Of a stretch of 64,000 nt of DNA, positions 39,638 to 56,419 are shown piece by piece. Location: contig JAMLHL010000004.1 of the NCBI GenBank assembly GCA_023957125.1, positions 1 to 64,000 on the forward strand. Direction: 5' to 3'. The notes below the pieces were generated by a model, which was not told the DNA's origin, made no database searches, and was given only the letters and a program-made list of their open reading frames with translations. Source of the DNA: Chitinophagaceae bacterium. GTDB lineage: Bacteria > Bacteroidota > Bacteroidia > Chitinophagales > Chitinophagaceae. The position numbers and the translations under genes were made by a program. Within the stretch, counting starts at the first letter, position 1. Each line of letters opens with the position of its first letter.

Positions 39638-39819
39638 TATCATGTGGTATGCTCTACCCGGTGCCGGGGGTGTCATAGAATAGTATGATATTCAGATCAC
39701 TCAAATAAATGGAGTATTGACTAAAAAATTGCGCTGGTTATACACCGGTTCTTTTTTTTTGAAAAAATGTGCGATGTTTCCGGAATTTTGAGGAGAAAAA
39801 CAGTGGCAATCTAACAATC

Positions 39820-42800
39820 ATGGTTTTCAGAAGAGCATGCATTGGCTTGTGTTTCTGGGTGCTGAGTATCCCTGTAACAGCGCAGTTTGCGGAATACCAG
39901 CTCCAGTTTTTTGACTATCCGAGCGGAATTCGTTCAGACGAAATCGTATCTCTTGGCAAGGATCAGAAAGGGGTACTTTGGATATTGTATCGCTCGAAGG
40001 TGCAGTTGTTTGACGGCAAGGAAGCACAGACTTTCAGCCCTGCTCCCAGACTAAACAGCCTGCTTTGCGATAAAAAAGGCCATATATGGGTTTGCTCGGA
40101 AAAAGAAGTGTTTCTTTTCTCGGAACAAACCGGGAAGTTTGATTCTGTAAAGATCGGGCACACGCCGCAAAGTTTGAAAGTGGGTCCCGTCATTGAACTG
40201 CAGGATGGCAGGATATGGATGATCACCAACCTCGGCTTTTTCCAGTTTGATGAATCAAAACGCGAATTCCATAAAGCAGTATCCCTGCTGCGTGAAGGAA
40301 TACCGTTTCTTACCGATGTTCTGGCGCATCATAAGGAGATGCTGTTTTTCCATGGTCGTGGTTTTATCTACCGGTACAACCTCTCAACCGCGCAGTTAGA
40401 CAGCATGGTAATTGGATCGCCTTATGACATCTTCCCGATAAGCGAAGACAGTTTACTGGTCAACCTGCGAAACACCTCTCCCCAATGGTACCGGTTTTCC
40501 ACCCGGTCTATCACCAAAGTATCACTTGGTAAGGAGTTTGCCGAAGCCTTCACCATGAGGCATATGACAGCTATCACACCTACTTGTTTTTTAATTGCAT
40601 CCGCCAATGGGATCATTGAATACGATGCCAATAAAAAAGTATTCCTGAAACAAAATTTTTTCCTGAATGGCCGAAAATTAGCCACCAAAGAATTTGCCAG
40701 CTTCATTTTATATGATCAGCAGGAGGGATATGTATGGCTTGCTACTACAGACGGCATAGCCCGCTTTGCTCTCAGAAACCCACCCATGGCGCTGGTAAAG
40801 ATCAGCCAGATGAATGATGAAGTGCCCGCCATCATTAATGACATAAGAAAAATTGTCCAGGATGAAGAGGGCAACTTATGGATGGCCACCGGTTACGGAT
40901 TTGTATGCTGGAAAAAAGAGGAAGGGAAATGGATCCTGTTTCCACCTGCCAGCAACGACAGTACCAGGCTGAGCCACGAATCCATCAGGGGAATGGTATA
41001 TGACGGGAAATACCTGATCTTAGGCCCCACCAATAAAGGGTTATGGTTATACGATATCAGAACAGGAGAATACAGGAGGCCTGTGTATGATACGGAAGAG
41101 ACCAGGAAGCTGAGCGAAACGGATTTCGTAAATGAAATTGCCACTTTACACAATGGCAATCACATCATTCTTGCCGATCATGCCATATACATCCTGGATG
41201 GAAAAACCTATCATTTAAAACAGTTCAAACATCCTGCCATCAAGCCGGGGAATGCCAGTTTTTGTGCCCAGGGAGGAGATGACATCGTATGGATAGCCAC
41301 CGCCTCCGGGATATATTGTTTTGACCGGGAAATGAACTATCTCCTTACGGTGCCGGAAGGATTCAGAAGTAATGCTATTAATTACGGATACAGCGGTTTC
41401 ATAATGAAAGACAACGGGCTGTTGCTCCCCTGCGCCACCGGACTGTATGCGCTCTATTACGAAAATGGAACGGTGCGGAGCGATAAAATAACCAATCTTT
41501 TTGACCAGGTGGTTCTATTCACCGTGTATATGGATAACAACGGGGTTATATGGGCCAGTTCTGAAAATGGCATTTACCGGTTTGACCCCAGGACCTCCGA
41601 GCTGAACCTTTTCGACCGTTCCGATAATATCCAGGGTTATGGCTTCAACAGCAACAGCGGGTTCAGAGACCGCGACGGACTGCTCTATTTCGGAGGATTA
41701 AACGGCGTCAATTATTGGCAGCCCGAAACCTTTTCCGCACCTAACCAGTCCTTTGAAACCTACATCAGCAAGGTGGGCATCGGCAATGTTGATTACTCCA
41801 TGTACGCTTTCGATACCCTTAAGCCGGTTTCTTATTCAGACCGTTCGTTGAGCGTATCCTTCGCTTCTGTTTATTTTAATAACCCGGCTAAAATACGGTA
41901 CCGTTATAAGCTCAGCAAAATAGATGATGAATGGAAAGATATAGGGAACAATAACGTGGTGCGTTTTTCTTCCCTGTCTCCCGGCAGCTATACCCTCATG
42001 ATGGAGGCAAGCCTGAACCGGGTTGACTGGAAAAAGGCAAGCAATTCACTCAGCTTTCAAATTCTTCAGCCTTTTTGGATGAGCTGGTGGTTTATCAGTG
42101 GCTGCATCCTGCTGACCGGAATTTTTGTCGGGCGTTTTATTTTAGACCAAAAACGGAAAATAAAAATCCATAAAGAAGACCTGGAAACGGCACAGGCCAT
42201 TAATTATTTTTCCTCCGGTATCTACGGTTCAAATGATATTGAGAAAGAATTCCATCATATTGCGGAAAGTTGCATAGAGCGGTTGCATTACAGCTATTCG
42301 GAGATCTATTATTTCGACTGGCGAACCCATGAACTAAAACCCATTGTGAGGCTCCGATCGGATTCCGCCGGAACCGGTATAGAAAAGATACCCGTGGTGA
42401 GAGAAGTCGTGAAGAGAGTGGCAACTACCGGGAAAGCGGAGATCATTGCTGATGCAACCCGGGCCGCCAGCTACGATTTCAGGAAGATCCAGGCGCTTTC
42501 GGAAATTGCTGTTCCGATCATAACGGATGGGAAGGTATGGGGTATAATATATGGCGGACATATTAAAAAAGATTTCTTTTCCCAAAAACAACTATCCATA
42601 CTTATAACCATTGCATCGCTTTGCGCGAATAAGATCATTAAGACGAAAGCTGAAAAGGAAAAAGCAAAAGCAGAATCTGTGTTAATGGATACCCGGCAAA
42701 AAATGGCAGAAGCCGAGATGCAGGCATTAAGAGCGCAAATGAATCCTCATTTCATTTTCAATTGCCTGAATTCTATCAACCGTTATATCGTAAAAAGCGA

Positions 42801-43344
42801 CCAGGCAACGGCATCCCTTTACCTTACCCGCTTTGCACGCCTGATACGACTCATACTGGACAATTCAAACAGCCAGTCAATTACCCTGGCGAGTGAGTTG
42901 GAAGCCCTGCGGCTATATGTGGAAATGGAGAGCATTCGTTTTGAAAAGAAGTTTAATTTTGATATCCATCTTGCCGAAGACATATATCCTGAAAGCATAT
43001 ACGTACCACCACTGATCATACAGCCATACGTGGAAAATGCCATCTGGCACGGCTTATTACATAAGGATACCGATGGTTGTTTGTCTGTCCGGATAAGCCG
43101 GAATGAAAATGATATGCTGCAATGCATCATAGAAGACAATGGCGTAGGAAGAGACGTGTCTGCCATGCTGAGAAGCAAAACCATGGCTTCCAAAAAGTCG
43201 TTAGGCATGCAACTCACCGAAAGCCGGCTTGTTTTACTGAGCCGGCAAATGGGTTTTAACGCCTCTGTGCAAATTGAAGACCTGAAGGGTGAACACGGCG
43301 AGCCTCTTGGTACAAAAGTAACGCTGAATATTCCTGTTGATTAA
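39820..43344 (+). CDS. Two-component sensor: propeller/Y_Y_Y/GAF LytS-type histidine kinase
   Basis: About 1174 residues. After a signal peptide, periplasmic propeller repeats (SRKVQLFDG-like blades such as DGRIWMITNLGFFQFD and GNLWMATGYGFVCW) and a Y_Y_Y domain (IRYRYKLSKIDDEWKDIG) lead to a membrane segment near residue 770 (WWFISGCILLTGIFVGRFIL). A GAF domain follows, then the His_kinase domain with MNPHFIFNCLNSINRYI and an HATPase. This is a hybrid-free sensor that pairs with the LytTR gene 16 bp downstream. The GTG at 39769 is ignored. Confidence 0.9.
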   Translation: MVFRRACIGLCFWVLSIPVTAQFAEYQLQFFDYPSGIRSDEIVSLGKDQKGVLWILYRSKVQLFDGKEAQTFSPAPRLNSLLCDKKGHIWVCSEKEVFLFSEQTGKFDSVKIGHTPQSLKVGPVIELQDGRIWMITNLGFFQFDESKREFHKAVSLLREGIPFLTDVLAHHKEMLFFHGRGFIYRYNLSTAQLDSMVIGSPYDIFPISEDSLLVNLRNTSPQWYRFSTRSITKVSLGKEFAEAFTMRHMTAITPTCFLIASANGIIEYDANKKVFLKQNFFLNGRKLATKEFASFILYDQQEGYVWLATTDGIARFALRNPPMALVKISQMNDEVPAIINDIRKIVQDEEGNLWMATGYGFVCWKKEEGKWILFPPASNDSTRLSHESIRGMVYDGKYLILGPTNKGLWLYDIRTGEYRRPVYDTEETRKLSETDFVNEIATLHNGNHIILADHAIYILDGKTYHLKQFKHPAIKPGNASFCAQGGDDIVWIATASGIYCFDREMNYLLTVPEGFRSNAINYGYSGFIMKDNGLLLPCATGLYALYYENGTVRSDKITNLFDQVVLFTVYMDNNGVIWASSENGIYRFDPRTSELNLFDRSDNIQGYGFNSNSGFRDRDGLLYFGGLNGVNYWQPETFSAPNQSFETYISKVGIGNVDYSMYAFDTLKPVSYSDRSLSVSFASVYFNNPAKIRYRYKLSKIDDEWKDIGNNNVVRFSSLSPGSYTLMMEASLNRVDWKKASNSLSFQILQPFWMSWWFISGCILLTGIFVGRFILDQKRKIKIHKEDLETAQAINYFSSGIYGSNDIEKEFHHIAESCIERLHYSYSEIYYFDWRTHELKPIVRLRSDSAGTGIEKIPVVREVVKRVATTGKAEIIADATRAASYDFRKIQALSEIAVPIITDGKVWGIIYGGHIKKDFFSQKQLSILITIASLCANKIIKTKAEKEKAKAESVLMDTRQKMAEAEMQALRAQMNPHFIFNCLNSINRYIVKSDQATASLYLTRFARLIRLILDNSNSQSITLASELEALRLYVEMESIRFEKKFNFDIHLAEDIYPESIYVPPLIIQPYVENAIWHGLLHKDTDGCLSVRISRNENDMLQCIIEDNGVGRDVSAMLRSKTMASKKSLGMQLTESRLVLLSRQMGFNASVQIEDLKGEHGEPLGTKVTLNIPVD

Positions 43345-43359
43345 AATAAAATTCAGACC

Positions 43360-44109
43360 ATGATAAAATGTGTGCTGGTGGATGATGAGAAAAACGCGCT
43401 CGAAATGATGGAATGGTTGTTAAAAACATACTGTCCCCAGGTTTCAATCGTTGCCATGTGTGGTACCGGCGAGGAAGGTATTGAGGCTATTAAAGAACAT
43501 CAGCCGGATGTGGTTTTCTTAGATATAGAGATGCCGCGAATGAACGGATTTGACATGCTGGAACAGTTGAAAGAAATTTCTTTTGAGATTGTATTTTGTA
43601 CCGCATATGACCAGTTTGCCATCAAGGCCTTTAAATATTCCGCGCTGCATTATTTATTAAAACCCATTGAACCGGAAGACCTGAAGGCAACAATCCGGAG
43701 AGTGGAAGAAAGGAAAGCGATCCCTACCCGGGAGCAATTCGCGTTACTGATGCAGCATATTAACCGCCCTTCCAAAACAGCGGCGCCCCGTATTGCCCTC
43801 ACCACCAGTGAAGGGTTGATGTTTGTGGCAACGGAAGAGATCATCTATTGCAGGGCAGAAGGTAACTATACCAATGTGATCCTCACAGGCGGAAAAAAGA
43901 TAATGGTTTCGAGGGTATTGAAAGAACTGGACGAAACCCTTTCGGGGGCCGATTTCTACCGGGTTCACAGCTCTTTCCTGATCAATATCAATCACATAAA
44001 AAAATTCATACGGGGAGAAGGAGGTTATATTGTTATGGACAATGGCGACCATATCATGCTCTCCCGGAGCCGGCGGCATGAATTTATGGAACTCTTTCCC
44101 AGGTTTTAA
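43360..44109 (+). CDS. LytTR-family response regulator
   Basis: A 249-residue regulator. The receiver domain has DDEKNALEMME, the phosphoacceptor Asp55 in VVFLDIEMP, and the conserved Lys in YLLKPIEPED. The C-terminal LytTR DNA-binding domain has IIYCRAEGNYTNVILTGG and FYRVHSSFLININHIKKF. It should act with the sensor kinase encoded just upstream; targets are unknown. Confidence 0.93.
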   Translation: MIKCVLVDDEKNALEMMEWLLKTYCPQVSIVAMCGTGEEGIEAIKEHQPDVVFLDIEMPRMNGFDMLEQLKEISFEIVFCTAYDQFAIKAFKYSALHYLLKPIEPEDLKATIRRVEERKAIPTREQFALLMQHINRPSKTAAPRIALTTSEGLMFVATEEIIYCRAEGNYTNVILTGGKKIMVSRVLKELDETLSGADFYRVHSSFLININHIKKFIRGEGGYIVMDNGDHIMLSRSRRHEFMELFPRF

Positions 44110-44243: not shown

Positions 44244-44834
44244 TTATTTAATAATAAATTTTCCCAATTTTTTCCCGGCAGCAGCATAAGCAGCGGCAAA
44301 TCTTTCCCCGGTATCGAAGTCGGTTCCCCAGAAACTGCGTGCCGGCGAGTTGTCAATTACCAATTTAGCAAGCACCTTATCCCGGTTGGCTGTTTCCACA
44401 ATTACCGCTTCCGCGTTAATGAAAGCACGCTTCCGTGCAACGCCAACATTAAAGCCCGGCTCCATGAAGGTGGTGTGAAAAACGATGGTATATTTAGCTT
44501 TGGAATCAACGGTGAGGCTACTACCCGAAGAAAATTCTTCATTAAACCTGGGCTCAAATCTCGAGGCTCTGTCGTTCACCCATTTTTTCGCCCATTCATC
44601 ACCCCGTCCTGCTTCATTTTTATTATACTCCTCTGTTTTCGCTTTCACATAATCCGCCTCCCTGTCAAACTTTCCAACGCCCATGGGGTCATAGGTAAAC
44701 TCAATGTTTATTGATTTTTCATTTTTAAGATCAGCGGGAACGTTACCTTCCGGCACGCTGATGCGCTGCGCGTAAATCGCATGAGAAACCAGGATAACTG
44801 CAGGGAGCAGGATGGCTTTTTTAAGCAATTGCAT
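44244..44834 (-). CDS. Exported protein of unknown function
   Basis: A 196-residue protein with signal peptide KKAILLPAVILVSHAIYAQ. Charged residues and a central SSGSSLTVDSKAKYTIVFHT strand pair, then INAEAVIVETANRDKVLAK. No family recognised. It is convergent with the LytTR gene and shares direction with the flexirubin-type block, 94 bp after it; whether it belongs to that operon is unclear. Confidence 0.6.
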   Translation of the reverse strand: MQLLKKAILLPAVILVSHAIYAQRISVPEGNVPADLKNEKSINIEFTYDPMGVGKFDREADYVKAKTEEYNKNEAGRGDEWAKKWVNDRASRFEPRFNEEFSSGSSLTVDSKAKYTIVFHTTFMEPGFNVGVARKRAFINAEAVIVETANRDKVLAKLVIDNSPARSFWGTDFDTGERFAAAYAAAGKKLGKFIIK

Positions 44835-44928: not shown

Positions 44929-45969
44929 TTACAAAAGACCAACCAGCATAACACTGTGTTGCGATCCCCGGAAATTATTATAGATAGCAATATTCCGGCA
45001 GTTGGTTTGGCGGCCCCTCCTTTTGATCATGTGGGGAGGAAGCGGTAGCCGACTGCACGCCAGCCAGAGAGCGATGGATGAGGCGGTGGCATAATCGCCG
45101 CACAGATGTTTGAACCGCGCGATAGTAGTATGGGTATCGAAAAGAGATTCAACGGAATGATAATATTTCAATATACGGCTGTCGCCATTTTCTCCGGTTA
45201 TCAACAGGTCCACCCTCTCTCCCGGGGGCAGATGGTTTTCTATAAATTGCTGCACAATGCTTTTTATTTCCGGCTCATTGGTGCTGTGCAGCGTCTGTAC
45301 ACCCTTCATAACAGCCACGGCATCCCGGGGCGAACCGCTCACTAAAAACATGGCGGCGCCTTCCCCGGCGATGGTGCCGGGGGTGTTGGCACTGTAAAGC
45401 GCTTTATTGGAAATTGTCTCCTGCTTAAAGCACCCGTCTAACAGGTCTATATTAAAATTGTAAGTGGATATTTCCTCTACGCCACCCAGGAGGAAAAAAC
45501 CACCGGCATTTTCCCGGGTGATCATCAGCGCGTCGAGCAAAGCATTTTCAAAGGCCAGACCGCGATGCACATGCGTGATATTGTATCCCTTATTTTTATG
45601 CATCAATCCCATCTGGGCCGCAATGGCATTGGGCGTGCTCTGTACAAAATTTCCGGGAGTAAGAAGACCTTCATCGTAATCTATGACCTGGTTAAGAAAT
45701 TTAATACAATCCTCCATGCCGCCGTTGGCAGTTCCGATAATAATACCATTTAAAACGGGCTGCTTCAAAAAAACAGGCATGGCGGCGCCAATGCCCATCC
45801 TCACTGCCTTTCCCATTCTCCGTAAAATATTCCGGGGTATATCTTTATATACAGGCTCTCTGGCCGTCAGCTTATTATCCACACTTTCATGTAAAGACAC
45901 AAGGTCAATGTTATCAAAAGTTTGTTGAGGCGATATACAGCTATATTGATGGATATACATGGAGTACAA
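44929..45969 (-). CDS. Ketosynthase-like chain-length-factor protein without catalytic residues
   Basis: A 346-residue KS-fold protein, short for the family. Where KS enzymes have the nucleophile Cys, this reads ITHVHRGLAFENALL (His135-Arg136-Gly137). The usual NAHGT segment reads TGENGDS and the KSTxGH segment reads FKHLCGDYATAS, so all three catalytic residues are missing. It should act as a chain length factor dimerised with the intact KS encoded upstream, as in type II polyketide and aryl-polyene systems. Confidence 0.8.
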   Translation of the reverse strand: MYSMYIHQYSCISPQQTFDNIDLVSLHESVDNKLTAREPVYKDIPRNILRRMGKAVRMGIGAAMPVFLKQPVLNGIIIGTANGGMEDCIKFLNQVIDYDEGLLTPGNFVQSTPNAIAAQMGLMHKNKGYNITHVHRGLAFENALLDALMITRENAGGFFLLGGVEEISTYNFNIDLLDGCFKQETISNKALYSANTPGTIAGEGAAMFLVSGSPRDAVAVMKGVQTLHSTNEPEIKSIVQQFIENHLPPGERVDLLITGENGDSRILKYYHSVESLFDTHTTIARFKHLCGDYATASSIALWLACSRLPLPPHMIKRRGRQTNCRNIAIYNNFRGSQHSVMLVGLL

Positions 45970-46042
45970 ATTTCAAAAACCACTAAACAAGAACCAAAAA
46001 AATCCCTCACTCAATCAGTGATTGAAGCGCTCATAACCGGGG

Positions 46043-47239
46043 TTAAGGATGTACCGCCGAAAAGACCAACGAAGAACAGTTTCCTCCGAATCCAAAAGAA
46101 TTGGACATTACATGCTGTAGGGCTGTTTTTTTATATTGGGTCGAAGGCATTAATCCCGTCTCTTCGATCGGATGACTGAAATGCAGCGCCGGGTATATTT
46201 CCTGGTGAAACAAACTCAGGATGCTGAAGATAGCCTCTACCCCACCGGCAGCGCCCAGGGTATGCCCGGTGCTGGCTTTGGTGGAAACAAACGGCGGAGG
46301 CTTTTTGAAAAGCCGTATCATAGCCCGGCTTTCTACCAGGTCGTTGTTTTCGGTGGCGGTACCATGCGCATTGATGAAACTGATATCGGAAGGCCCCAGC
46401 CCGGCTTCGTTTAAAGCCTGCCGCATGCACAGATAAGGGCCGTCTCCTTCTTCTGATAAGGACGATCCATGAAACGCATCATTGCTGTTTCCACAGCCGC
46501 TCAATGCAGCATACACTTTTCTTCCTTCCATTATATCCTCTTCTTTTTCCATTACCACAAAAGCAGCGGCTTCGCCCAGGTTTAATCCCTGCCTGTTTTT
46601 ATCAAACGGAGCACACTGTTCGGGAGAAAGGATGTGCAGGGCGTTAAACCCATTGATCGTAAATTTTGCGAGACTGTCGGTACCGCCGGCTATCACCCTC
46701 CCGGCATAGCCGTTTCTCAACAACCGGGCGCCATACATAATAGCGTTGGCGGAAGAAGAACAAGCAGTGTTGATGGTGTTAATGATCCCCTTCATTTGAT
46801 AGCGCTGCTGAAGATACAGGTCAACAGAAGCGCAGTCGTAAGATGAAAGATATTCAGATCCCTGCCCTTTTTCATTCGCATCACGGTACAGTTCGTCTGT
46901 AAGACACATGCCTCCTACCGTGGAGGCGCCAATCAAAGCGGTATCAAAAGAACCAACCTGTTCCAAAGAAAGACCGGCATCCTCTACCGCTTCCCGGAAG
47001 GCATGCAACCCCAGGAGCGAGCTTCGGGTAACCCCTTTTTCCTGAGCATTAAGTTTTGCCTTCAACGCGCCGGTTTCAATTTTTATCTCCCCGCAGGGGC
47101 GTAAACCGGAGTATTTGGTGGGGAATAAACTAAGTTGGGTAATACCGGTTTGCCCCGCGATCAATGCTGCCCGGTTTTCCTCAACGGAATTGCCGATACA
47201 ACTGATCATACCCACGCCGGTAATAAAAATCCTGCTCAA
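46043..47239 (-). CDS. FabF-like beta-ketoacyl-ACP synthase
   Basis: A 398-residue KS. The catalytic triad is present: Cys160 in NTACSSSANAIM, His292 in NAHGTATENND, His326 in KASTGHTLGAAGG. It extends acyl-ACP with malonyl units. Flanked by its dead partner (73 bp downstream) and an ACP gene (11 bp upstream), it forms a minimal KS-CLF-ACP set. Confidence 0.92.
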   Translation of the reverse strand: MSRIFITGVGMISCIGNSVEENRAALIAGQTGITQLSLFPTKYSGLRPCGEIKIETGALKAKLNAQEKGVTRSSLLGLHAFREAVEDAGLSLEQVGSFDTALIGASTVGGMCLTDELYRDANEKGQGSEYLSSYDCASVDLYLQQRYQMKGIINTINTACSSSANAIMYGARLLRNGYAGRVIAGGTDSLAKFTINGFNALHILSPEQCAPFDKNRQGLNLGEAAAFVVMEKEEDIMEGRKVYAALSGCGNSNDAFHGSSLSEEGDGPYLCMRQALNEAGLGPSDISFINAHGTATENNDLVESRAMIRLFKKPPPFVSTKASTGHTLGAAGGVEAIFSILSLFHQEIYPALHFSHPIEETGLMPSTQYKKTALQHVMSNSFGFGGNCSSLVFSAVHP

Positions 47240-47250
47240 CCGTAAATAAT

Positions 47251-47514
47251 TTATTGCGTTTGATGAGCCAGGATATAGTTGGCCATCGTGTTGATGTCCA
47301 CCAATATTTTCCGGCCTTCTTTTGGGTCTTCAATGGTGATGCCATATTCGCGCGAAAGTAATACAATGAGTTCGATAGAATCTATAGAATCGAGGCCAAG
47401 CCCCTCGCCAAACAGGGGTTCATCATCTTTGATGTTCTCAGGCTGGACGTCGGTAAGATTTAAGAATTGAACAATTTGTTGTTTGAGTTGCTGCTTCAGT
47501 TGTTCTTTTTCCAT
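47251..47514 (-). CDS. Acyl carrier protein
   Basis: An 87-residue ACP. The phosphopantetheine attachment is Ser43 in GLGLDSIDSIELIVLL. The start is the ATG at 47514 (MEKEQLKQQL); the longer frame is unlikely. It should serve the adjacent KS pair rather than general fatty-acid synthesis. Confidence 0.92.
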   Translation of the reverse strand: MEKEQLKQQLKQQIVQFLNLTDVQPENIKDDEPLFGEGLGLDSIDSIELIVLLSREYGITIEDPKEGRKILVDINTMANYILAHQTQ

Positions 47515-47525
47515 TAGTAAAATTT

Positions 47526-48809
47526 TCAAATCAAATTTTTTCGCTTCAATCCCCAAAACGCAATTATCTGCAATAATACAGTAATAACCAATAAAGGTAT
47601 AATATTCATTAAAATATCCCGGGCGCCGGCATCCTCCAAAAATAGCCCATAGAAGGCTTCAAGACACCAATGTAAAGGTGATAACAGCATTATTACCCTG
47701 AAGGATGGCGGCATTACAAAGGAAGGAACCAGCAGCCCGCCGATGGCCGCCATGATCACCACCGCCACTGCACCAAAGCCATTTGCCTGTTCCTGTGTAT
47801 TGGCAAATATCCCGACGCAGATGGCAAAACCAGCCGCACACCAGCCGCAGATAAAAGTTACCCCGGCCAGGGACCAAAGATGCGAGGGTAAATTCAACGC
47901 GGGCAGGCCTATCACAGGAAACAACCAAATCCCGATGGCGAAAATGACCATCGCCTGAAGCAGGGTTACCGCTATGTAGGTAACCTGTTTTGAAAGAACC
48001 GCCAATCCGAAATGGGTGGGTAAAGTGCGCAGCCGGACCATACTTCCGTTCAATTTTTCCCGCACTATGCTGCTGCCCAGTGAAATGACTATAAAAAACA
48101 TCGCGAAGATGGTCCATGCCGGGATGTTGTGCTGGGTTGCATTAGGTATTTGCGGACTATCGCCTCTTGAAAGGGGTACCTCCTCAATGGGCGTCTGGTT
48201 GGTGATGATCTGCTCCTCCAGCGAACCGGGTATGTCTTCTTCATGAATAGTGAAATACACTTCTTTCACGATGTATTTGCTCTGGATAAACTGCAGGGCC
48301 GTTTGCAATGTGGCGTCTATACTTTTCCGGAAGGACTGTTGCAAAACCGGGTGATAATATATCCGGACGGGAGGTGTTGCGCCGGGTTTCACACTTTCGT
48401 TTTCCTTTTCCTCCTGCATCACTCCATCGAGGGCTTCGCTGGCCACCGATTTAGCTTTGCTTAACACGTTTTCCGAATAGCCTGCAGGTATCACAATGGC
48501 TACCAGGGCGTCTTTTGTATTGATCCGGTTTTTGAGCTCCTCTTCGTTTTGAACAGCAGCAACTTCCTGAAGCCGGAATATCCCCGCTTTATCGAGGGCA
48601 GCCTCTAACTCCGCTGCTACCCTGCCCGGGTCGCTGTTTTGAATGATAACAGGGATCCTATTTTTATTGACCAGCTCAAATGTGCTGTTTTGAACCGATG
48701 CAATGACCACGGCTAACAGGATGGGCATGGCAAACATCAGCACCAACCCCATTTTATCACGAAACAGGATCCTGAAATCTTTTTTTATCGTTGCCAAAAG
48801 TTTGAACAA
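47526..48809 (-). CDS. ABC-2-type transporter permease
   Basis: A 427-residue membrane protein: an N-terminal membrane segment (MGLVLMFAMPILLAVVIAS), a long extracytoplasmic loop of about 200 residues, then five C-terminal segments. It pairs with the ATPase encoded upstream and should export or flip a lipid-like product of the locus. Confidence 0.9.
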   Translation of the reverse strand: MFKLLATIKKDFRILFRDKMGLVLMFAMPILLAVVIASVQNSTFELVNKNRIPVIIQNSDPGRVAAELEAALDKAGIFRLQEVAAVQNEEELKNRINTKDALVAIVIPAGYSENVLSKAKSVASEALDGVMQEEKENESVKPGATPPVRIYYHPVLQQSFRKSIDATLQTALQFIQSKYIVKEVYFTIHEEDIPGSLEEQIITNQTPIEEVPLSRGDSPQIPNATQHNIPAWTIFAMFFIVISLGSSIVREKLNGSMVRLRTLPTHFGLAVLSKQVTYIAVTLLQAMVIFAIGIWLFPVIGLPALNLPSHLWSLAGVTFICGWCAAGFAICVGIFANTQEQANGFGAVAVVIMAAIGGLLVPSFVMPPSFRVIMLLSPLHWCLEAFYGLFLEDAGARDILMNIIPLLVITVLLQIIAFWGLKRKNLI

Positions 48810-48867
48810 AGTAGGAGTTTGAAGTTTTTAGTTTGAAGTTTGGTCTCAAATCTTAAATCTCAAATTC

Positions 48868-49626
48868 TCAATCCCTATAGGCCCGGCCGGTAAGGCTCAG
48901 GAACAACCCTTCCAGTCCGTCCTGTTGATGCTCTTTCAGCAATTCGGGCAAACTGTTGCGGGCAATGATCTTTCCTTCGTCTATCAGCGCCACCCGGTTG
49001 CACAGATCTTCCGCTTCTTTCAACTGGTGCGATGTATAAATCAACGTTGTGCCTTTGCTATTCAATTCTTTCAGATATTCAACAATGGCGTACCTGGTTT
49101 GAACGTCAACCCCCGCAGTAGGTTCGTCAAGAAACAGCATCGCAGGTTCGTGCATCACCGCTATTGCCAGGTTCACCCTTCGTTTCATTCCTCCAGAAAA
49201 TTTATATACTGGTTTGTTTCTTACCTCTGTAAGCGACATCACATCGAGCAGCTCATCTGTTTTCTGCTGAATTTGTTTTTGATCAAGACCAGCCCACGCG
49301 CCAAAAAATTCCATGTTCTCTTTAGGGCTTAATTCGTGGTAGAAAGAAAAGTCCTGGGGCACAAAGCCAAAAAACGAACGTATCTGTTTTTTGCCGGCTG
49401 CCACTTCATGTTCCAGCAATTTTACCGAACCCCGGGAATAGGGAAGCAATCCCGTCATGATCTGCATTAAAGTGGTTTTGCCGGCGCCGTTGGGTCCGAA
49501 GATGCCGAAGCGGTCGCCCCGGTTGATCTGAAGATCCAGGTCTTTGATCGCTTCGGGGAGGTTTCCCCGGTAAGTATAACTCAGGTTTTTTATTTGAATG
49601 GCAGGAAGCATTAGGTATGGGATCAA
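48868..49626 (-). CDS. ABC transporter ATP-binding protein
   Basis: A 252-residue ATPase with Walker A GPNGAGKTT, signature KFSGGMKRRV and Walker B AMLFLDEPTAG, followed by the H-loop YTSHQ. It works with the ABC-2 permease gene 58 bp downstream. Confidence 0.93.
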   Translation of the reverse strand: MIPYLMLPAIQIKNLSYTYRGNLPEAIKDLDLQINRGDRFGIFGPNGAGKTTLMQIMTGLLPYSRGSVKLLEHEVAAGKKQIRSFFGFVPQDFSFYHELSPKENMEFFGAWAGLDQKQIQQKTDELLDVMSLTEVRNKPVYKFSGGMKRRVNLAIAVMHEPAMLFLDEPTAGVDVQTRYAIVEYLKELNSKGTTLIYTSHQLKEAEDLCNRVALIDEGKIIARNSLPELLKEHQQDGLEGLFLSLTGRAYRD

Positions 49627-49642
49627 TGATAAAGCGCTTTCG

Positions 49643-50662
49643 TTATTTTAATTTTTTCAGCAACCCGGCGAGGCTGGTGAAGGCCTCTTTTTCCAGGGAG
49701 GCTATTTCCAGTAAATAATCGCCCATCGTATTGTAATCTTCCTGGCCGGCAAGCCGGCCCTTGTATATACCGGAAGCCTGCACAGCCGCGTTTCTCCAGA
49801 GATCACCCGCTTTGGTGAATTGCCGGGATATCTCCATAAAACCATCATCCGGGAAATATTCATAAGCCTGTTGTAAAAAAGCGGCATAGATAAACCGAAA
49901 TCCACCGCCACCGGTGCCGATCTCTTCCTGCATGCGGACCAACTGCGCTAAATAGCTTCTCGACTTTTCAACCCCGAGCCGGTCTCGCCACTTCTTTATT
50001 TTTTTGCCGGTATATCGGATACCGCTGACTCCCGCAATATTTCCGGGCACATACAACATATCGCGCACATTTCTTTTTATACCGGTGAGGATTGCGGTTC
50101 TCATTTGTTCATGGGTTACTTTCCTCTTTTCCCTGGGAAAATACAATTGACCTTTAGGCGCCAGCGGCCCCCGCGCAAACCGTACTCTTTCCAATTCATA
50201 GGGGGTCATGGTAGCGATCTGCTCCATGATAGGATCACTGATGAGATAGCGATCGTCTTCCCTGCCCACAACGATGATATTATGTGCATTAAAGTGAAAA
50301 CGGTATTCTTTGGGAAAATAAGGAAGATAATAAACGCCTACCTGGCAGGCTGCTGGTTCACCCTGTGAAAGCCTGTTGTTTAATGCCCGCATTGCTTTTT
50401 CGCGGGATGAAAATTTCTCCCGGATGATGGGGATGTTCAATGACCTGCAGGTTCTTTTAAAGATCATGCCGGGCATAGTTCTGAAAGAAATGGCAGGACC
50501 GTTATTCACTTTCATCAGGGGGATGTAGATAAAAAACAAACCCGAGCCGATCCCAAAGGCCAACGGTTCGGTCATTTGTTCCACCCCGTAATATCTAAGC
50601 AGGCTGGTAGTTACCCCATTTTCACAATGCGCAGCCTGCAGGTGTTTAAACTCCTCTATCAT
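49643..50662 (-). CDS. BtrH N-terminal/DUF4872 domain protein
   Basis: A 339-residue protein. The start MIEEFKHLQAAHCENGVTTSLL gives the BtrH_N cysteine (AHCENG) and the later HFNAHNIIVVGREDDRYLI gives a His region, followed by DUF4872. BtrH in butirosin synthesis moves an acyl group from an ACP onto an amine, so this may be an ACP-dependent acyltransferase, possibly the one that joins two halves of the product. It overlaps the 137-residue gene by 17 bp. Confidence 0.8.
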   Translation of the reverse strand: MIEEFKHLQAAHCENGVTTSLLRYYGVEQMTEPLAFGIGSGLFFIYIPLMKVNNGPAISFRTMPGMIFKRTCRSLNIPIIREKFSSREKAMRALNNRLSQGEPAACQVGVYYLPYFPKEYRFHFNAHNIIVVGREDDRYLISDPIMEQIATMTPYELERVRFARGPLAPKGQLYFPREKRKVTHEQMRTAILTGIKRNVRDMLYVPGNIAGVSGIRYTGKKIKKWRDRLGVEKSRSYLAQLVRMQEEIGTGGGGFRFIYAAFLQQAYEYFPDDGFMEISRQFTKAGDLWRNAAVQASGIYKGRLAGQEDYNTMGDYLLEIASLEKEAFTSLAGLLKKLK

Positions 50663-51059
50663 TCGGTTTCCCGGTTTTTAATGCTTTTACAGATACCTCA
50701 AAAGCCTCGGCATAGCGTTGCAGCTTTTTATCGGAAAGCTTTCTAAAGACAGCAGGTTTTAAATGCCGGCGGATCTGCCATTTCCAAAACCCTGTATAAG
50801 CTGAGAGGATATGGATATCCATGATGTTTAATTCCATGAACAATAACAAGGGACTGGCTTCACCCGACCTTACTTTCTGATCGGCTTCTTTCACCTTTTT
50901 CTCAATATCACTCCAGGCAACGTCCAGCGCAATTATCTTCACCTCCCAACCGGTACTCAACCCGGTTACGTAATGACCGTTTTCATCCACTGCATAGGAT
51001 ACTTCTTTGGTAACCTTGTTTAAGGCTCCCGGATCCTGGGGTATCTCTTCTTTTTTCAT
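50646..51059 (-). CDS. Unknown protein of the flexirubin-type locus
   Basis: A 137-residue protein, MKKEEIPQDPGALNKVTKEV, with no signal peptide and mostly helical character. Its stop overlaps the BtrH-like start, implying coupled translation and a related job. Family not recognised. Confidence 0.65.
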   Translation of the reverse strand: MKKEEIPQDPGALNKVTKEVSYAVDENGHYVTGLSTGWEVKIIALDVAWSDIEKKVKEADQKVRSGEASPLLLFMELNIMDIHILSAYTGFWKWQIRRHLKPAVFRKLSDKKLQRYAEAFEVSVKALKTGKPNDRGV

Positions 51060-51078
51060 TGTACAATTGTTTGGGGGT

Positions 51079-51297
51079 TTTAGGTTGCAGGTCTCAAGAT
51101 GCGGGTCTCAGGTTGCGGGTCTCAGGTCTCAGGTTTCAGGTCTTAGGTTGCAGGTTTCCAGAAACAGTTATCTTCCTTCATCCGCACCCTGTAACATGCA
51201 CCCTGCAACCTGTAACACCCTGCTTCCTGCAACACGCACCCTTACCCCTTTGCTACATGCAGCCTGCAACCTGAGACTTATCCCCTGCAACCTGCAT
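51079..51297. repeat. CAGGT-type repeat cluster G inside the flexirubin-type operon
   Basis: A forward run of GGTTGCAGGTCTCA / GGTCTCAGGT / GGTTTCAGG variants (51079-51158) is followed by a reverse run of CCCTGCAACCTG / GCAACCTGAGAC words (51185-51297). The two halves could form a long imperfect hairpin. It lies between the darB stop and the 137-residue gene start, splitting the block. Confidence 0.85.
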
Positions 51298-51311
51298 TCG
51301 GATTTCCTAAA

Positions 51312-52469
51312 TCATACCACCGTCAGCAACCCGTACATATAGGAAAAACGGGAGCTTTCGGGCACCAGCAAAAGCAGTTTATTGCCTTTTTGCAGTTTGC
51401 CGCTATGAAATAATTCATCTATCATGAGATATACGGAAGCGGCACCCACATTACCCACCGTGCTCAGGTTAACGAACCACTTTTCGTAGGGAATGCCCAT
51501 ACCATTATATTCCAGGCGCTCGTATATTTTACTTTTGAAGAAGTTGCTCGACATGTGCGGCAAAAAATAATCAATATCGTCGGGCGTCATCCCCTTTGTT
51601 TCAAACAATTCTTTAAGTTTAATGCCGCCTAACGGAACGATGTATTCGCTGAGTAACTTCACGTCCTGTTTTATACTCAGGACAGACTGATCCACCAGAT
51701 CGTCGGGAGAATATTCTAAAAAACTTTTCAACGTTCCGTCTTCCATTTTATCGCTGCCCATGTACATGCAGGCTTCCATTTCCTGCGCATAAGAAACGCC
51801 TTCCAGCCATTCTATGCGAAGAGACAATCCATCTTCATTTTTCTGATTGGAAAGCAGGAACGCGGCTGCGCCATCCGAAAGCATCCACCGGAGAAAATCT
51901 TTTTCGAAGCTGATATAGGGGTTGGCTTCCAGCTCCTTCAGCTTCTGCACCTCGTCTTCAAACAATTCCGCCCGCAGGGAAGTGGAAAACCTTTCAGACC
52001 CCGTGGCGATGGCAGTTTGCACATCTCCGGTCCTGATAGCGAGATAAGCGTACTTCAGCGCATGCATTCCCGCGCAGCATACCCCTGCCGGCGACACCAC
52101 TTCTATAGCCCCGGATTCGGGCAAACAGCCGTGCACCATCACACCGTGTGAAGGCATCAGCTGATCGGGAGAAGAGGTTCCACAGGATAATAACTGCATG
52201 GATTTAATAGCTCCCGGAGTGCCATTAAACAAGGCTTTAACAGCATTAGCCGTCATTTCGGCATTGGTATGGGTAACCTTCCCCCCTTTTTCGAGAGCAT
52301 AATACCGGTTGGTGATCCCGTTATTACGCAATACAATTCGCCTGGATTTTGACGGCTTGCTATTTATATAACCCAGGTATTCCTCCATCTCGTCATTGGA
52401 AACCGGGTTATTGGGGAAAAAATTTGCGGTTCGGGTAATGTAAACTTCGTTCAATGTCATTTGCTTCAT
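51312..52469 (-). CDS. darB: DarB-like beta-ketoacyl-ACP synthase III
   Basis: A 385-residue KASIII-fold enzyme. The nucleophile is most likely Cys132 in PAGVCCAGMHALKY, with His in LPHMSSNFF and Asn in STVGNVGAAS. The long N-terminus (NEVYITRTANFFPNNPVSND) is that of DarB, which starts dialkylresorcinol synthesis by joining two beta-keto acyl units. It lies 61 bp after darA, its usual partner. Confidence 0.88.
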   Translation of the reverse strand: MKQMTLNEVYITRTANFFPNNPVSNDEMEEYLGYINSKPSKSRRIVLRNNGITNRYYALEKGGKVTHTNAEMTANAVKALFNGTPGAIKSMQLLSCGTSSPDQLMPSHGVMVHGCLPESGAIEVVSPAGVCCAGMHALKYAYLAIRTGDVQTAIATGSERFSTSLRAELFEDEVQKLKELEANPYISFEKDFLRWMLSDGAAAFLLSNQKNEDGLSLRIEWLEGVSYAQEMEACMYMGSDKMEDGTLKSFLEYSPDDLVDQSVLSIKQDVKLLSEYIVPLGGIKLKELFETKGMTPDDIDYFLPHMSSNFFKSKIYERLEYNGMGIPYEKWFVNLSTVGNVGAASVYLMIDELFHSGKLQKGNKLLLLVPESSRFSYMYGLLTVV

Positions 52470-52530
52470 ATATAGATGCCCAAAAATAGAATTTTATCCT
52501 ATAAAAAGGGCCGCTAACCTTCAATACCGG

Positions 52531-53439
52531 TTACTCCGGTGCAACACCGGAATAATATTGTTTTTGTTTTTTTACCCGTTTCCCTAAAAAAGGCCTGAAA
52601 AATAAGGCATCCACGGTTAAAATAATAGGAGCCGCAACAAAAAGAGCGATTAAAATATAATATTTAAAAGCCACCAGTAAAACCGTTCTTTTTTTGCTTT
52701 TACGGATGATCTTTGACCAGATGGAAAAGATGCGGCCGGCTTTCCGTTCAATGAACATCAGGCTGTAAATGATGTTAACGGCGCCCTGCTGCACCAGTTC
52801 CGGCTGCAGCCCGTTCCATTCATTTTTTCGCAAATATTCCCCGATCGTTTCCCCATACCGGGAGCAGTTGGCAATATCTTCGTCTGATACCCCCGGTTTA
52901 GGGAAAACTCCCCATTTCCGGTCCTTCTTACCCGTCAGCATCCAGTAAAAAATAGTTACCAGGCTGGCATAGTTATTATGCCGGTCCACCAGGGCGATAT
53001 TGCCCACCAGGGGAGCATCGGCTTCTGCGAGTTTCCGTTTGATCTTTTCCTGGGCATTGATCCACATATTTCTGCAACCGCTGATCGTTATAACCGGCGT
53101 ATTCCGGGCCAGGTTCTTAAAATAAGGAAGTTGCAAAAGCGAGTTGACAGGAATACTGGGCGATAAAAACCAGGGTTGGTATCCGATGATTATCAAATCG
53201 TACCCGGATTCATTGCAGGTAAAAGGTTCCAATGCTACGGGTATTCCGTCCACGCTCTCCGGCATCACGTCAAAAAAAACGGGCGTTGTCCAGGGAAAGG
53301 GGAAAGGCGATACCGGCTGGATACGTATTTTTTCTACCGTAATACCGGGTGAAGATTCCAAAGGACCAACCAGGCGATGAATGATATCCTCCATTTGCCC
53401 GGATTGTGTATAATACAGGGCTAAAATTTTTTTACTCAT
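52531..53439 (-). CDS. darA: DarA-like dialkylresorcinol condensing enzyme
   Basis: A 302-residue protein opening with a flavodoxin-like fold (KKILALYYTQSGQMEDIIHRL and DLIIIGYQPWFLSPS) and ending in a hydrophobic segment (FKYYILIALFVAAPIIL) with a basic tail. This combination and the neighbouring DarB identify DarA, which with DarB makes 2,5-dialkylresorcinols. The membrane segment would hold it at the inner membrane. Confidence 0.88.
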   Translation of the reverse strand: MSKKILALYYTQSGQMEDIIHRLVGPLESSPGITVEKIRIQPVSPFPFPWTTPVFFDVMPESVDGIPVALEPFTCNESGYDLIIIGYQPWFLSPSIPVNSLLQLPYFKNLARNTPVITISGCRNMWINAQEKIKRKLAEADAPLVGNIALVDRHNNYASLVTIFYWMLTGKKDRKWGVFPKPGVSDEDIANCSRYGETIGEYLRKNEWNGLQPELVQQGAVNIIYSLMFIERKAGRIFSIWSKIIRKSKKRTVLLVAFKYYILIALFVAAPIILTVDALFFRPFLGKRVKKQKQYYSGVAPE

Positions 53440-53453
53440 AGTTTATATGGTAA

Positions 53454-53963
53454 TTAAAGATCACCAGGCAACAAAACGTTTGACAACCGGCTGTATGCCC
53501 GGATGGCTTTCTGCAGGCTCTCCGGTATGGCGGTAAAATGCGCTATAATAAACTGATGATCCTTGTTGATCTCCTGATCATAATGCAGGATTTTAGGCGC
53601 TTTTTCCTGTATGATCAGCCGCAGAAACCGGAATTCAACATTATCGGGATCTTTGGCAATCATATTTTCCAGCTTTTCCCTACCGGCTTTAAATTCTTTT
53701 AATTTATTAGCCGCGCCCTTTATCAGGGCCGCCCTCTTCATCTGCAGCGCGCCTTCAAAAGCTTCCTTCTGCCCCGGTTTGCTCCGAAGGATAATATCCA
53801 ACTGCTTTTCAACAGCCGGCAACTCGTTGCTGCTCAGCGCCGCGTAATAAGCGTTGCGTTCAAAGCCGGGAATATGGTTTTGTGCAAACGCCAAATGCAG
53901 GGCAAACGATAAAATTACCGTACAAACAAAAGGAAAAAAAGTCTTGTTTTTCAATATGAACAT
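53454..53963 (-). CDS. Exported helical protein heading the flexirubin-type block
   Basis: A 169-residue protein with signal peptide FFPFVCTVILSFALHLAFAQ. The rest is helical, with TPR-like spacing (ERNAYYAALSSNELPAVEKQL). It precedes darA by 14 bp. A minus-strand TAGGTTTG (53972-53979) matches -7 but would leave only a few bases of leader before the ATG at 53963, so either initiation is nearly leaderless or the real start lies elsewhere. Confidence 0.65.
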   Translation of the reverse strand: MFILKNKTFFPFVCTVILSFALHLAFAQNHIPGFERNAYYAALSSNELPAVEKQLDIILRSKPGQKEAFEGALQMKRAALIKGAANKLKEFKAGREKLENMIAKDPDNVEFRFLRLIIQEKAPKILHYDQEINKDHQFIIAHFTAIPESLQKAIRAYSRLSNVLLPGDL

Positions 53964-54090
53964 ATACGCGCCAAACCTACATAAAATTTTATTCAAAACG
54001 GGCTTCCGGAGAAGAAGACCCAGGGGTGTTAAGAAGAATGTAAAAGCAAAGAGGTTTTGGCGTTCTATGGCAGAAGTCTTTTTCCCGTCC

Positions 54091-54912: not shown

Positions 54913-55446
54913 ATGAATTCTCCCGTCAAAATATTACCCTATTATACTTATGCCGATTATGCGCAGTGGGAAGGTCAATGGGAATTGATTGACGGCATAC
55001 CCTATGCCATGAGCCCGTCTCCCGCCCCTAAGCATCAGCGGATTGCCAACAATTTAGGGACCGAATTCAGGTTACAGTTAAAGCAGTGTGCCCAATGCAA
55101 CGCCTATCAACCCGTAGATTACCGTATTAGCGATGACACTATTCTACAGCCGGATATGCTGGTGATATGCGGCACGGTCACTAAAAAGTATTTAGACTTC
55201 CCGCCATCCCTGGTGGCTGAAATTCTTTCACCCGCTACCGCACTGAAAGACCGCCATACCAAGTATGGCATTTACGAATCGCAGGGCATACCTTATTTTA
55301 TCATTATCAGTACCGACACCGAAGACGTGGAAATTTATGAATTACAAAATGGAAAGTACCTGCTTTCCGGGAAAGGAAGCGCTATTACCCACGAGTTTTT
55401 ATTTGACGACTGCAGGGCTGTGATTGATTTTAAAGAAATATGGTGA
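54913..55446 (+). CDS. Uma2-family protein (PD-(D/E)xK fold)
   Basis: A 177-residue Uma2 protein. Features include WELIDGIPYAMSPSPAPKHQ, the acidic PDMLVICG and VAEILSPATALKDRHTKYGIYESQGIPYFII, with the E...K pair of the restriction-endonuclease fold. Uma2 proteins are predicted nucleases, often in multiple copies with no known target. It lies alone between a methyltransferase remnant and convergent repeats. Confidence 0.88.
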   Translation: MNSPVKILPYYTYADYAQWEGQWELIDGIPYAMSPSPAPKHQRIANNLGTEFRLQLKQCAQCNAYQPVDYRISDDTILQPDMLVICGTVTKKYLDFPPSLVAEILSPATALKDRHTKYGIYESQGIPYFIIISTDTEDVEIYELQNGKYLLSGKGSAITHEFLFDDCRAVIDFKEIW

Positions 55447-55568
55447 GCATTTCAAATTTGAGATTTGGGATCTAAGATTTTATCCCGGATGCCGGGGGTT
55501 GAGATTGACAAACCAATGAGGTACCAGGAAGTTCGGTTGTGGCTGAGATCTCAGGGCTGACGGCTGAA

Positions 55569-55623
55569 ACCTCATACCTGAGACCCGATACCTCATACCT
55601 GAGACCCGATACCTCATACCTGA
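55569..55623. repeat. 21-bp tandem repeat, cluster H
   Basis: ACCTCATACCTGAGACCCGAT occurs exactly twice (55569, 55590) with a 13-bp third start at 55611. Just upstream are GAGATCTCAGGGCTGACGGC words also seen in other clusters. It lies between the convergent uma2-like and tylF-like genes. Confidence 0.85.
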
Positions 55624-55626
55624 AAA

Positions 55627-56301
55627 CTACGCAAAACCTTTTGTAATAATAACGGTACCTCCCGCATCCGGAATCGGGACCAGCCCGATGTGTTGTTCAG
55701 TACAAAACTGCGACACGGCTTGCCTCGCGCCGGGATATTGATCGTTGTTAAAGTCGTGAATAAAAATATATCCTCCCGCTACCAGCCGGGGATAAAAGAA
55801 TGTAAGTCCTTCATATATGGGCTGGAACAGATCGGCGTCAAGGCTCACAAAACAGAATTGTTCGTCCACCCCGACTGCCGTATCCGGAAATTTTCCTTTT
55901 TTGAAAACACAGTTTTGCGGATACTTCATCTTCGACCGCACCAGCTCCACACTGGTTCGGGTAAAATCCTGCGAGCCGGTGGAATAGTCATGGGCTTTCT
56001 CAAACCTTACATCATCCTCCGAAAACCCTTCAAAGGTGTCGAAGAGATATAGTTTTTTGTCGGGGAAAAGTACATTTAATCTTTTTGAGAAATCCCCCCT
56101 GAATACTCCAACCTCCGCCACACTTCCGGGCAGGTTCCTTTCAATCACTTCTTCTCCACAAAGTTCCAGGCTTGAATACCGCACATAATCTATACTGATG
56201 GGAAGCCGGCGCCGCCGTTTCAGGTAAACCAAAGATTTGATGAAATACAGATTTTTATGTGCCAACAGATTTGCCAAAAACCGGAATATATTTTTTTTCA
56301 T
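55627..56301 (-). CDS. TylF/MycF-type O-methyltransferase
   Basis: A 224-residue SAM enzyme. SAM site: GSVAEVGVFRGDFSKRLN; YLFDTFEGFSEDD; metal-binding VSLDADLFQPIYEGLTFF and IHDFNND. TylF relatives methylate sugars. It is divergent from the polysaccharide cluster and probably modifies one of its sugars. Confidence 0.85.
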   Translation of the reverse strand: MKKNIFRFLANLLAHKNLYFIKSLVYLKRRRRLPISIDYVRYSSLELCGEEVIERNLPGSVAEVGVFRGDFSKRLNVLFPDKKLYLFDTFEGFSEDDVRFEKAHDYSTGSQDFTRTSVELVRSKMKYPQNCVFKKGKFPDTAVGVDEQFCFVSLDADLFQPIYEGLTFFYPRLVAGGYIFIHDFNNDQYPGARQAVSQFCTEQHIGLVPIPDAGGTVIITKGFA

Positions 56302-56394
56302 CGCTCCTGCAAATTAGTTTGATTTTTAAACAACATCTAAGGCCATCCCAAATATATTACCTAAAATCATATCTTAGTAATCGGTGATTTCAAT

Positions 56395-56402
56395 TATTTT
56401 TG
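56395..56402 (+). promoter_or_regulatory. Candidate -7 element for the polysaccharide cluster
   Basis: TATTTTTG matches TAnnTTTG and ends 17 bp before the rfbF ATG, giving a leader of about 12 bases. Confidence 0.45.
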
Positions 56403-56419
56403 TCCTACTTTAAAAATAC

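Follow-up and report, generated by a model that had tools for sequence, protein, structure and literature searches.

A dar gene block in a Chitinophagaceae bacterium as the probable resorcinol half of a split flexirubin pathway

Introduction

Where is the rest of the pathway to flexirubin, an orange pigment of bacteria, when a locus holds only part of it? This question is raised by a block of ten genes in a Chitinophagaceae bacterium (assembly GCA_023957125.1). The block lies within the window, by which we mean the whole stretch analysed here, the 64,000 nucleotides at positions 1 to 64,000 of contig JAMLHL010000004.1. It encodes the DarA and DarB pair for dialkylresorcinol, an acyl carrier protein (ACP), a ketosynthase (KS) with a KS-like partner devoid of catalytic residues (the dead KS), an ABC exporter and a BtrH-like protein. 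The original prediction, made from the sequence of the window, noted that ammonia lyase and dehydratase genes are wanting there, and offered two explanations: either the pathway is split in the genome, or the locus makes an unusual product, such as a dialkylresorcinol without the polyene.

We propose that the block is, very probably, the dar half of a split flexirubin pathway whose polyene half lies elsewhere in the same genome, and that the two halves together would make a predicted flexirubin-type pigment. The assignment of the dar half follows from the fact that DarB, DarG and DarH pass the NCBI flexirubin and dialkylresorcinol models, with DarA recognised by homology. The pathway is read as split because FlxY, FlxA, FlxB, LolA2 and other polyene-type genes are present in the same genome.

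Results

The ten open reading frames of the block run in the same direction on the minus strand, from 44929 to 53996, just where the original prediction had placed them, and are transcribed in the order 169-180-residue protein, DarA, DarB, DarG, DarH, ABC ATPase, ABC permease, ACP, KS and dead KS (Table 1). The first gene starts at either TTG 53996 or ATG 53963, the latter being the limit given in the original prediction. Neighbouring genes are separated by fewer than 75 bases or overlap, except for about 250 bases between darB and darG; the gap between the ABC ATPase and permease genes is 58 bp. Pfam matches over the cut-off within the block are BtrH_N, ABC_tran, ABC2_membrane_3, PP-binding and the N- and C-terminal ketoacyl-synt domains. 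Thus the composition first described, a KS/CLF-like (chain length factor) pair, ACP, exporter, BtrH-like protein and DarA/DarB in ten co-oriented genes, is borne out by protein families, models and homology.

The gene order is not a matter of chance: of 21 related DarB loci, 12 have the full set of ten in this arrangement and four more have nine of the ten, with the dead KS undetected. These loci come from a DarB scan of named genome contigs, which gave 24 loci. The 21 strong matches (53-87% identity) were counted and three weak KAS III matches at 21-33% identity (L036-L038) were left out. By match coordinates, the 21 overlap the other sets used below: L015-L018 and L035 coincide with genus members, and L019, L023, L024, L031 and L034 with family members. 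L016, the Agriterribacter humi locus (genome G205), has the same match coordinates as genus member G195, which makes Agriterribacter, of the family Chitinophagaceae, the probable genus. A homologue of the first protein of the block, which has no match in Pfam or NCBIfam, lies upstream of DarA in 18 of the 21 loci.

The resorcinol pair is complete, with DarB identified by NF053539 and DarA by 47% identity, over 301 residues, to a Dyadobacter protein to which NCBI gives the name DarA. For DarA, neither Pfam nor NCBIfam gave a match; its model (pLDDT 85.1), predicted from a small alignment of 24 rows taken from 120 of 6409 matches and from the loci, has flavodoxin-type matches for the N-terminal part. 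Residues C132, H305 and N340 of DarB and C13, H127 and D143 of DarH are invariant, each in 21 aligned rows, as are D56 and S57 of the ACP in 18 rows, one of which is the polyene-block ACP of L030. On the basis of family knowledge, we take these conserved residues to be catalytic in the two enzymes and to mark the attachment site in the ACP.

The window KS, which matches 6qsp chain A by sequence, keeps the Cys-His-His triad, and so do all 17 dar-block rows aligned. In the partner, the catalytic Cys, His and His are replaced by G, G and D. All three catalytic residues are lost in 16 of 16 KS-like partners (13 from dar blocks, three from polyene blocks), the Cys being replaced in every one by Gly, or by Ser or Asn. 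Therefore the label of dead KS, already given in the original prediction, is right. The Pfam match of this protein is below threshold (23.3 against 25 bits) and at an E value of 0.01 it has no sequence match to any solved chain; its model, predicted from a small alignment of 15 rows, has the ketosynthase fold (mean pLDDT 76.7) and aligns along the whole KS fold. It adjoins an active-type KS and has no active-site Cys, as expected of a KS-chain length factor pair, with Gly rather than Gln at the Cys position. Gln replacing Cys is the mark of actinorhodin-type chain length factors.

A second ACP-KS-dead-KS set is found in the polyene block described below, on contig C11; its members are 52% (ACP), 44% (KS) and 36% (dead KS) identical to those of the window. 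A tree of 25 KSs places the 17 from dar blocks in one group with support 99/99, the position of the polyene KSs being less certain. Since the grouped sequences come from Chitinophagaceae, Dyadobacter and one Flavobacteriales record, the dar KS line appears, judging by the tree, to be older than the split of these lineages, unless it has moved between them.

Table 1. Genes of the dar block and its downstream neighbour, by position in the window.
Feature	Position	Strand	Basis or remark
196-residue protein, probable signal peptide (judged by eye)	44244..44834	-	recurs with the block as an eleventh gene
KS-like protein without catalytic residues, chain-length-factor-like	44929..45969	-	PF13723 below cut-off; KS-fold model
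beta-Ketoacyl-ACP synthase, Cys-His-His intact	46043..47239	-	PF00109 and PF02801 over cut-off
ACP with LDSID attachment motif	47251..47556	-	PF00550; NF006617 over cut-off
ABC-2 type transporter permease	47526..48809	-	PF12698, 124.1 bits
ABC transporter ATPase	48868..49626	-	PF00005, 109.8 bits
DarH, BtrH-related acyltransferase, candidate ester-forming enzyme	49643..50662	-	NF053550, 451.5 bits (cut-off 300); PF14399 and PF16169
DarG, flexirubin biosynthesis protein	50646..51059	-	NF053545, 189.5 bits (cut-off 170)
DarB, KAS III-like dialkylresorcinol synthase	51312..52469	-	NF053539, 636.7 bits (cut-off 550)
DarA, dialkylresorcinol condensing enzyme or aromatase, flavodoxin-like N-terminal part	52531..53439	-	homology to a named DarA
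169-180-residue protein, probable signal peptide (judged by eye), first gene of the block	53454..53996	-	

The genome comprises 4.67 Mb in 56 contigs, the block being inside one of 241 kb. That contig has no match to the ammonia-lyase family PF00221 or to PF07977, and its only PF00109 match is the KS of the block itself. The sole PF00221 match in the genome is on another contig, C18, so the absence of ammonia lyase and dehydratase from the window, as first noted, is borne out by these families. The search of the rest of the genome that the original prediction had called for located the polyene half on C18 and C11, and of its two explanations it is the split pathway that stands.

By model, the C18 enzyme (C18:34456-35946) is the tyrosine ammonia-lyase (TAL) FlxA, with 830.5 bits to NF053541 (cut-off 700). 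A histidine ammonia-lyase was considered and rejected, the two histidine models giving 452.1 and 437.5 bits, both below their cut-offs. Upstream of FlxA lies FlxY, a 4-coumarate-CoA ligase by model (NF053551, 663.4 bits, cut-off 520), and downstream lie the ketoreductase FlxB (NF053542, 396.9 bits, cut-off 340), a KS and a lipid-A-type acyltransferase. About 13 kb further, at the end of C18, there follow a 149-residue protein, a thioesterase, a KS, an O-methyltransferase and the start of an FAD-dependent oxidoreductase. The start of C11 carries a full copy of the oxidoreductase, a 208-residue protein, an ACP, a KS, a dead KS, a deacetylase, LolA2 (217 bits, cut-off 125), a second 208-residue protein and a FabA-like dehydratase (33.9 bits, cut-off 23). 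One of the 208-residue proteins has no family match and the other no Pfam match. Thus KS genes of the polyene-extending kind are present on both contigs, and the deacetylase, acyltransferase and LolA2 genes for localisation are also in the genome.

The last 405 bases of C18 (L040) and positions 62-466 of C11 (L041) share the start of the oxidoreductase gene, gapless, at 94.3% identity. An exact overlap of the two contigs was rejected, given the 23 mismatches in the 405 bp and the first 61 bases of C11, which have no real match on C18; the shared end suggests a second copy of the gene or a mixture of strains. In G028, G195 and G203, FlxA and the polyene KS are on one contig at a distance of 28-32 kb (14.6 kb in G202), which fits a single interrupted polyene region. 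A 34-base intergenic repeat occurs, in both orientations, between the flx genes and elsewhere on C18 and C11 (L039 4296-4480, L040 11942 and L041 11567-11910); the window has none at up to five mismatches.

How regularly do the two halves go together in other genomes? FlxA is over the cut-off in the genomes of 18 of the 21 DarB loci, the exceptions being one Chitinophagaceae and two Prevotella records. Among 195 genomes of the family, counted from 430 bits for DarB and 500 bits for FlxA, both below the curated cut-offs, 61 have DarB and 61 have FlxA; 58 have both, three have each alone and 131 have neither (Fisher value 5.5e-42, relatedness ignored). By the curated cut-offs, DarB is in 50 and FlxA in 60 of the 195. 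Within the genus, all 12 genomes have both, on different contigs, one of them in an assembly of only nine contigs.

Physical linkage is another matter. In the 58 genomes with both genes, many of which are drafts, darB and flxA are within 50 kb of one another in nine, on the same contig but 168 kb-3.8 Mb apart in six, and on different contigs in 43. Six family genomes with both genes are single contigs: in G022, G106, G119 and G169 the genes are 0.8-3.8 Mb apart, and in G055 and G141 they are 18-24 kb apart. The distance to FlxA is an imperfect measure of linkage, for by it the L031 genome is scored as unlinked, yet polyene KS genes stand next to its dar block. L034 has its ten dar genes between FlxA and FlxB, and in L030, as in L031, the dar genes are beside a polyene block; therefore other genomes do have both halves in a single cluster. 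FlxY is near the dar genes in L022 and in three Dyadobacter loci.

Some loci depart from the common pattern. The DarB of L034 (about 9.9-11.1 kb, with the same match coordinates as G153) is in two pieces with one in-frame TAG, and is broken or mis-sequenced. In L026 (8985-11149), from Crocinitomicaceae, darA-darB is accompanied by no other matched dar gene in 16 kb; its genome (G215) has FlxA. The Prevotella loci L032 and L033 have DarB-DarG-DarH, with DarA and a second DarH in L032, and their genomes have no FlxA match, so another starter unit is possible there. The locus of G022 (L062) has only the 180-residue gene, DarA, DarB, DarG and DarH, with no ABC, ACP, KS or dead KS match in the next 9.7 kb.

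The block is not always whole. In eight of the 12 genus members, 5-7 kb separate DarB from the dar-block KS; the two are 198 kb apart in G199, and on different contigs, well away from the contig ends, in G198 and G123; in G197, DarB is at a contig end and its linkage to the KS is uninformative. In the three separated cases (L058, L077-L080), the break parts the ABC ATPase gene from the permease gene. The ATPase is the last dar gene on the DarB side, where the next 4.5-9.8 kb gave no match to the permease, ACP, KS or dead KS; in G198 and G123 the other side carries permease-ACP-KS-dead KS, complete and in order. The unlinked KSs are of the dar type (67-73% identity to the window KS). At the same point, L028 has an extra stretch of about 1.6 kb, and the Azoarcus dar cluster has an antitoxin-toxin-like pair (PMC3949708). 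Contiguity alone therefore under-counts the pathway in this genus.

Discussion

Both the gene set and the split have published counterparts. In Chitinophaga pinensis, another member of the Chitinophagaceae, the dar genes (Cpin_6850-6851) are apart from the flx genes (Cpin_1853-1877), FlxA and FlxY have been tested, and the flexirubin is an ester of both halves (PMC3992019). As judged from the text of that paper, the present genome shares with C. pinensis the separation of dar from the polyene genes, the TAL FlxA and the ligase FlxY, as well as the KS, dehydratase, thioesterase, methyltransferase, deacetylase, acyltransferase and LolA classes. Unlike C. pinensis, which has one polyene cluster, this genome has FlxY-FlxA-FlxB-KS-acyltransferase on C18 some 13 kb away from the remaining genes, in a region that runs off the end of the contig. 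The 37-kb flexirubin cluster of Flavobacterium johnsoniae, in which a darB mutant loses its pigment, also has darA, darB, a TAL-family gene and polyene genes, contiguous there and split here (PMC3992019). A Dyadobacter flexirubin cluster has also been described (PMC9606717).

The closest match in gene order is the dar cluster for arcuflavin of Azoarcus sp. BH72 (darA, B, D, E, F, G, H, I, C, J and K; azo0283-0293; PMC3949708). By the descriptions given for its genes, the order is the same: resorcinol pair, conserved hypothetical protein, BtrH-like protein, ABC ATPase, permease, ACP, KS and a last hypothetical protein. In both organisms darA, darB, the BtrH-like gene, the ABC pair, ACP, KS and the terminal partner form one operon-like run. 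There, too, the dar genes stand as a separate block; of the two polyene loci, one is 19 locus tags away (PMC3949708). The antitoxin-toxin-like pair, its darG and darH, is absent here and we do not treat it as defining; the Azoarcus polyene starts from 3-hydroxybenzoate, not from coumarate (PMC3949708). By gene order, the proteins that NCBI calls DarG and DarH appear to be the darD and darE of Azoarcus, so that the names clash. The original prediction named the same gene set in a characterised flexirubin cluster as a finding that would refute it, and the Azoarcus dar cluster, together with the published split in C. pinensis, largely supplies such a case. A view of the locus as an oddity is not supported by these comparisons: it is an ordinary, well-conserved dar locus, and neither its gene set nor the split is new here.

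What would the dar KS and its partner do? A condensing KS beside a KS-like partner recalls ApeO-ApeC of aryl polyene clusters (PMC8358021; 6qsp). ApeC is described as a protein with a single thiolase domain, roughly half as large as its KS (PMC8358021), against a partner of 346 residues beside a KS of 398 in the window. The Azoarcus counterparts are entered in PMC3949708 as a ketosynthase and a hypothetical protein, with no tested role in the text consulted. Among the literature matches listed, whose titles and abstract openings were covered, with subscription journals largely outside, no tested function was found for a dar-block KS, dead KS or BtrH-like protein.

A pathway can be proposed that would start from ACP-bound acyl chains, supplied by the ACP, the KS and its dead partner. 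From two fatty acyl thioesters DarB would form a ring, and aromatisation of the ring by DarA would give a 2,5-dialkylresorcinol. On the other side, tyrosine would become 4-coumaroyl-CoA through FlxA and FlxY, and extension by the KS, ketoreductase and dehydratase on C18 and C11 would lead from there to an aryl polyene. DarH would then be likely to move the polyene acyl group from an ACP to a resorcinol hydroxyl through its Cys-His-Asp triad, and transport of the pigment towards the outer membrane would fall to the ABC exporter and LolA2. It is tempting to go further and to regard the dar ACP-KS-dead-KS set as a dedicated minimal synthase that makes or measures chains for DarB, with the dead KS setting the alkyl lengths of the resorcinol, the polyene cassette making the aryl polyene, and DarH rather than FlxW acting as the ester synthase. 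We put this extension forward tentatively and think it somewhat more likely to fail than to hold. The way in which the block breaks into DarA-DarB-DarG-DarH-ATPase and permease-ACP-KS-dead KS, each whole, fits the idea of the dar cassette as a module of its own.

Several observations weigh against a split flexirubin pathway of this form. The C. pinensis authors assign the ester bond to the ligase-like FlxW, not to the BtrH-like protein (PMC3992019), and FlxW was not identified in this genome. The 149-residue protein on C18, which by eye looks like a second dehydratase, matches nothing in Pfam or NCBIfam and was missed by PF07977; the methyltransferase, at 541 bits, falls short of the FlxJ cut-off of 560; and MMPL matches, one of about 850 residues, are found only away from the flx genes. 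The junction of C18 with C11, which we consider likely, rests on an end match of only 94.3%. Lastly, the three family genomes that have FlxA without DarB, two of which (G099 and G157) are 98-100% complete, show that the halves can part.

Do these points favour some other product? That a free dialkylresorcinol, such as a signal or an antibiotic, is what the block makes, with the polyene half irrelevant, would agree with the lack of polyene genes on its contig by the ammonia-lyase, KS and FabA searches, with darA-darB standing alone in the L026 stretch, and with the want of a strong FlxA in three of the 61 family genomes with DarB and in three of the 21 locus genomes, two of them Prevotella. We consider it very improbable, since the polyene half is in the same genome, FlxA accompanies DarB throughout the genus, the L026 genome itself has FlxA, and the three exceptions in the family are 83-91% complete. 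A resorcinol-only locus was rejected because the polyene genes are in the genome, and the unusual product of the original prediction sits poorly with FlxA in 58 of 61 family genomes with DarB and in 12 of 12 of the genus. The chances are just as slight that the cell makes two pigments, the flx genes giving a plain aryl polyene and the dar genes, with their own KS, dead KS and ACP, a different resorcinol ester. The two paralogous cassettes, the grouping of the dar-block KS apart from the polyene KS and the genomes with FlxA and no DarB would speak for this; the near-perfect co-occurrence of DarB and FlxA, the adjacency of both gene sets in L030, L031 and L034, and the C. pinensis flexirubin, which joins both halves as an ester (PMC3992019), speak against it.

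Least probable of all, in our judgement, is that the split is an artefact of assembly and that the dar block truly adjoins the flx genes. It is the case that the genome is in 56 contigs, that in 43 of the 58 family genomes the genes are merely on different contigs, and that FlxA distance misjudges L031. Against this, the block is inside its 241-kb contig, flanked by two-component genes at one end and by nucleotide-sugar genes at the other; four of the six single-contig genomes have the genes 0.8-3.8 Mb apart along the record, with two of the six in proximity; and all 12 genus members have them on different contigs, the nine-contig assembly included. We therefore retain the view that this is the dar half of a split flexirubin pathway.

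The flanks of the block also deserve comment. The claim that unrelated genes bound it does not hold for the downstream neighbour at 44244-44834; only this part of the claim had to be given up. The 196-residue product of that gene has no Pfam match, and the gene recurs with the block in six of the 21 related loci: its homologues lie directly after the dead KS in L016-L018 (54-67% identity) and in the dar/flx stretches of L025, L027 and L029, Dyadobacter flexirubin clusters (42-45%). Beyond it, at 39769-44109 on the opposite strand, are a large sensor kinase (propeller, Y_Y_Y, GAF and histidine kinase domains) and a LytTR response regulator, and past the other end of the block, at 54913-57196, a Uma2-family gene, a TylF-like methyltransferase gene and a nucleotidyltransferase gene.

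With the missing polyene genes located in the genome, the question from which we started is closed. For those who work on flexirubins, the 169-180-residue and 196-residue proteins, DarG and the dead KS stand out as conserved dar genes, and DarH offers a testable proposal for the ester-forming enzyme. For the family as a whole, dar is often separate from flx, and few of the genomes with both genes have darB near flxA, even if this scarcity of close pairs is to be read with the draft state of many of these genomes in mind.

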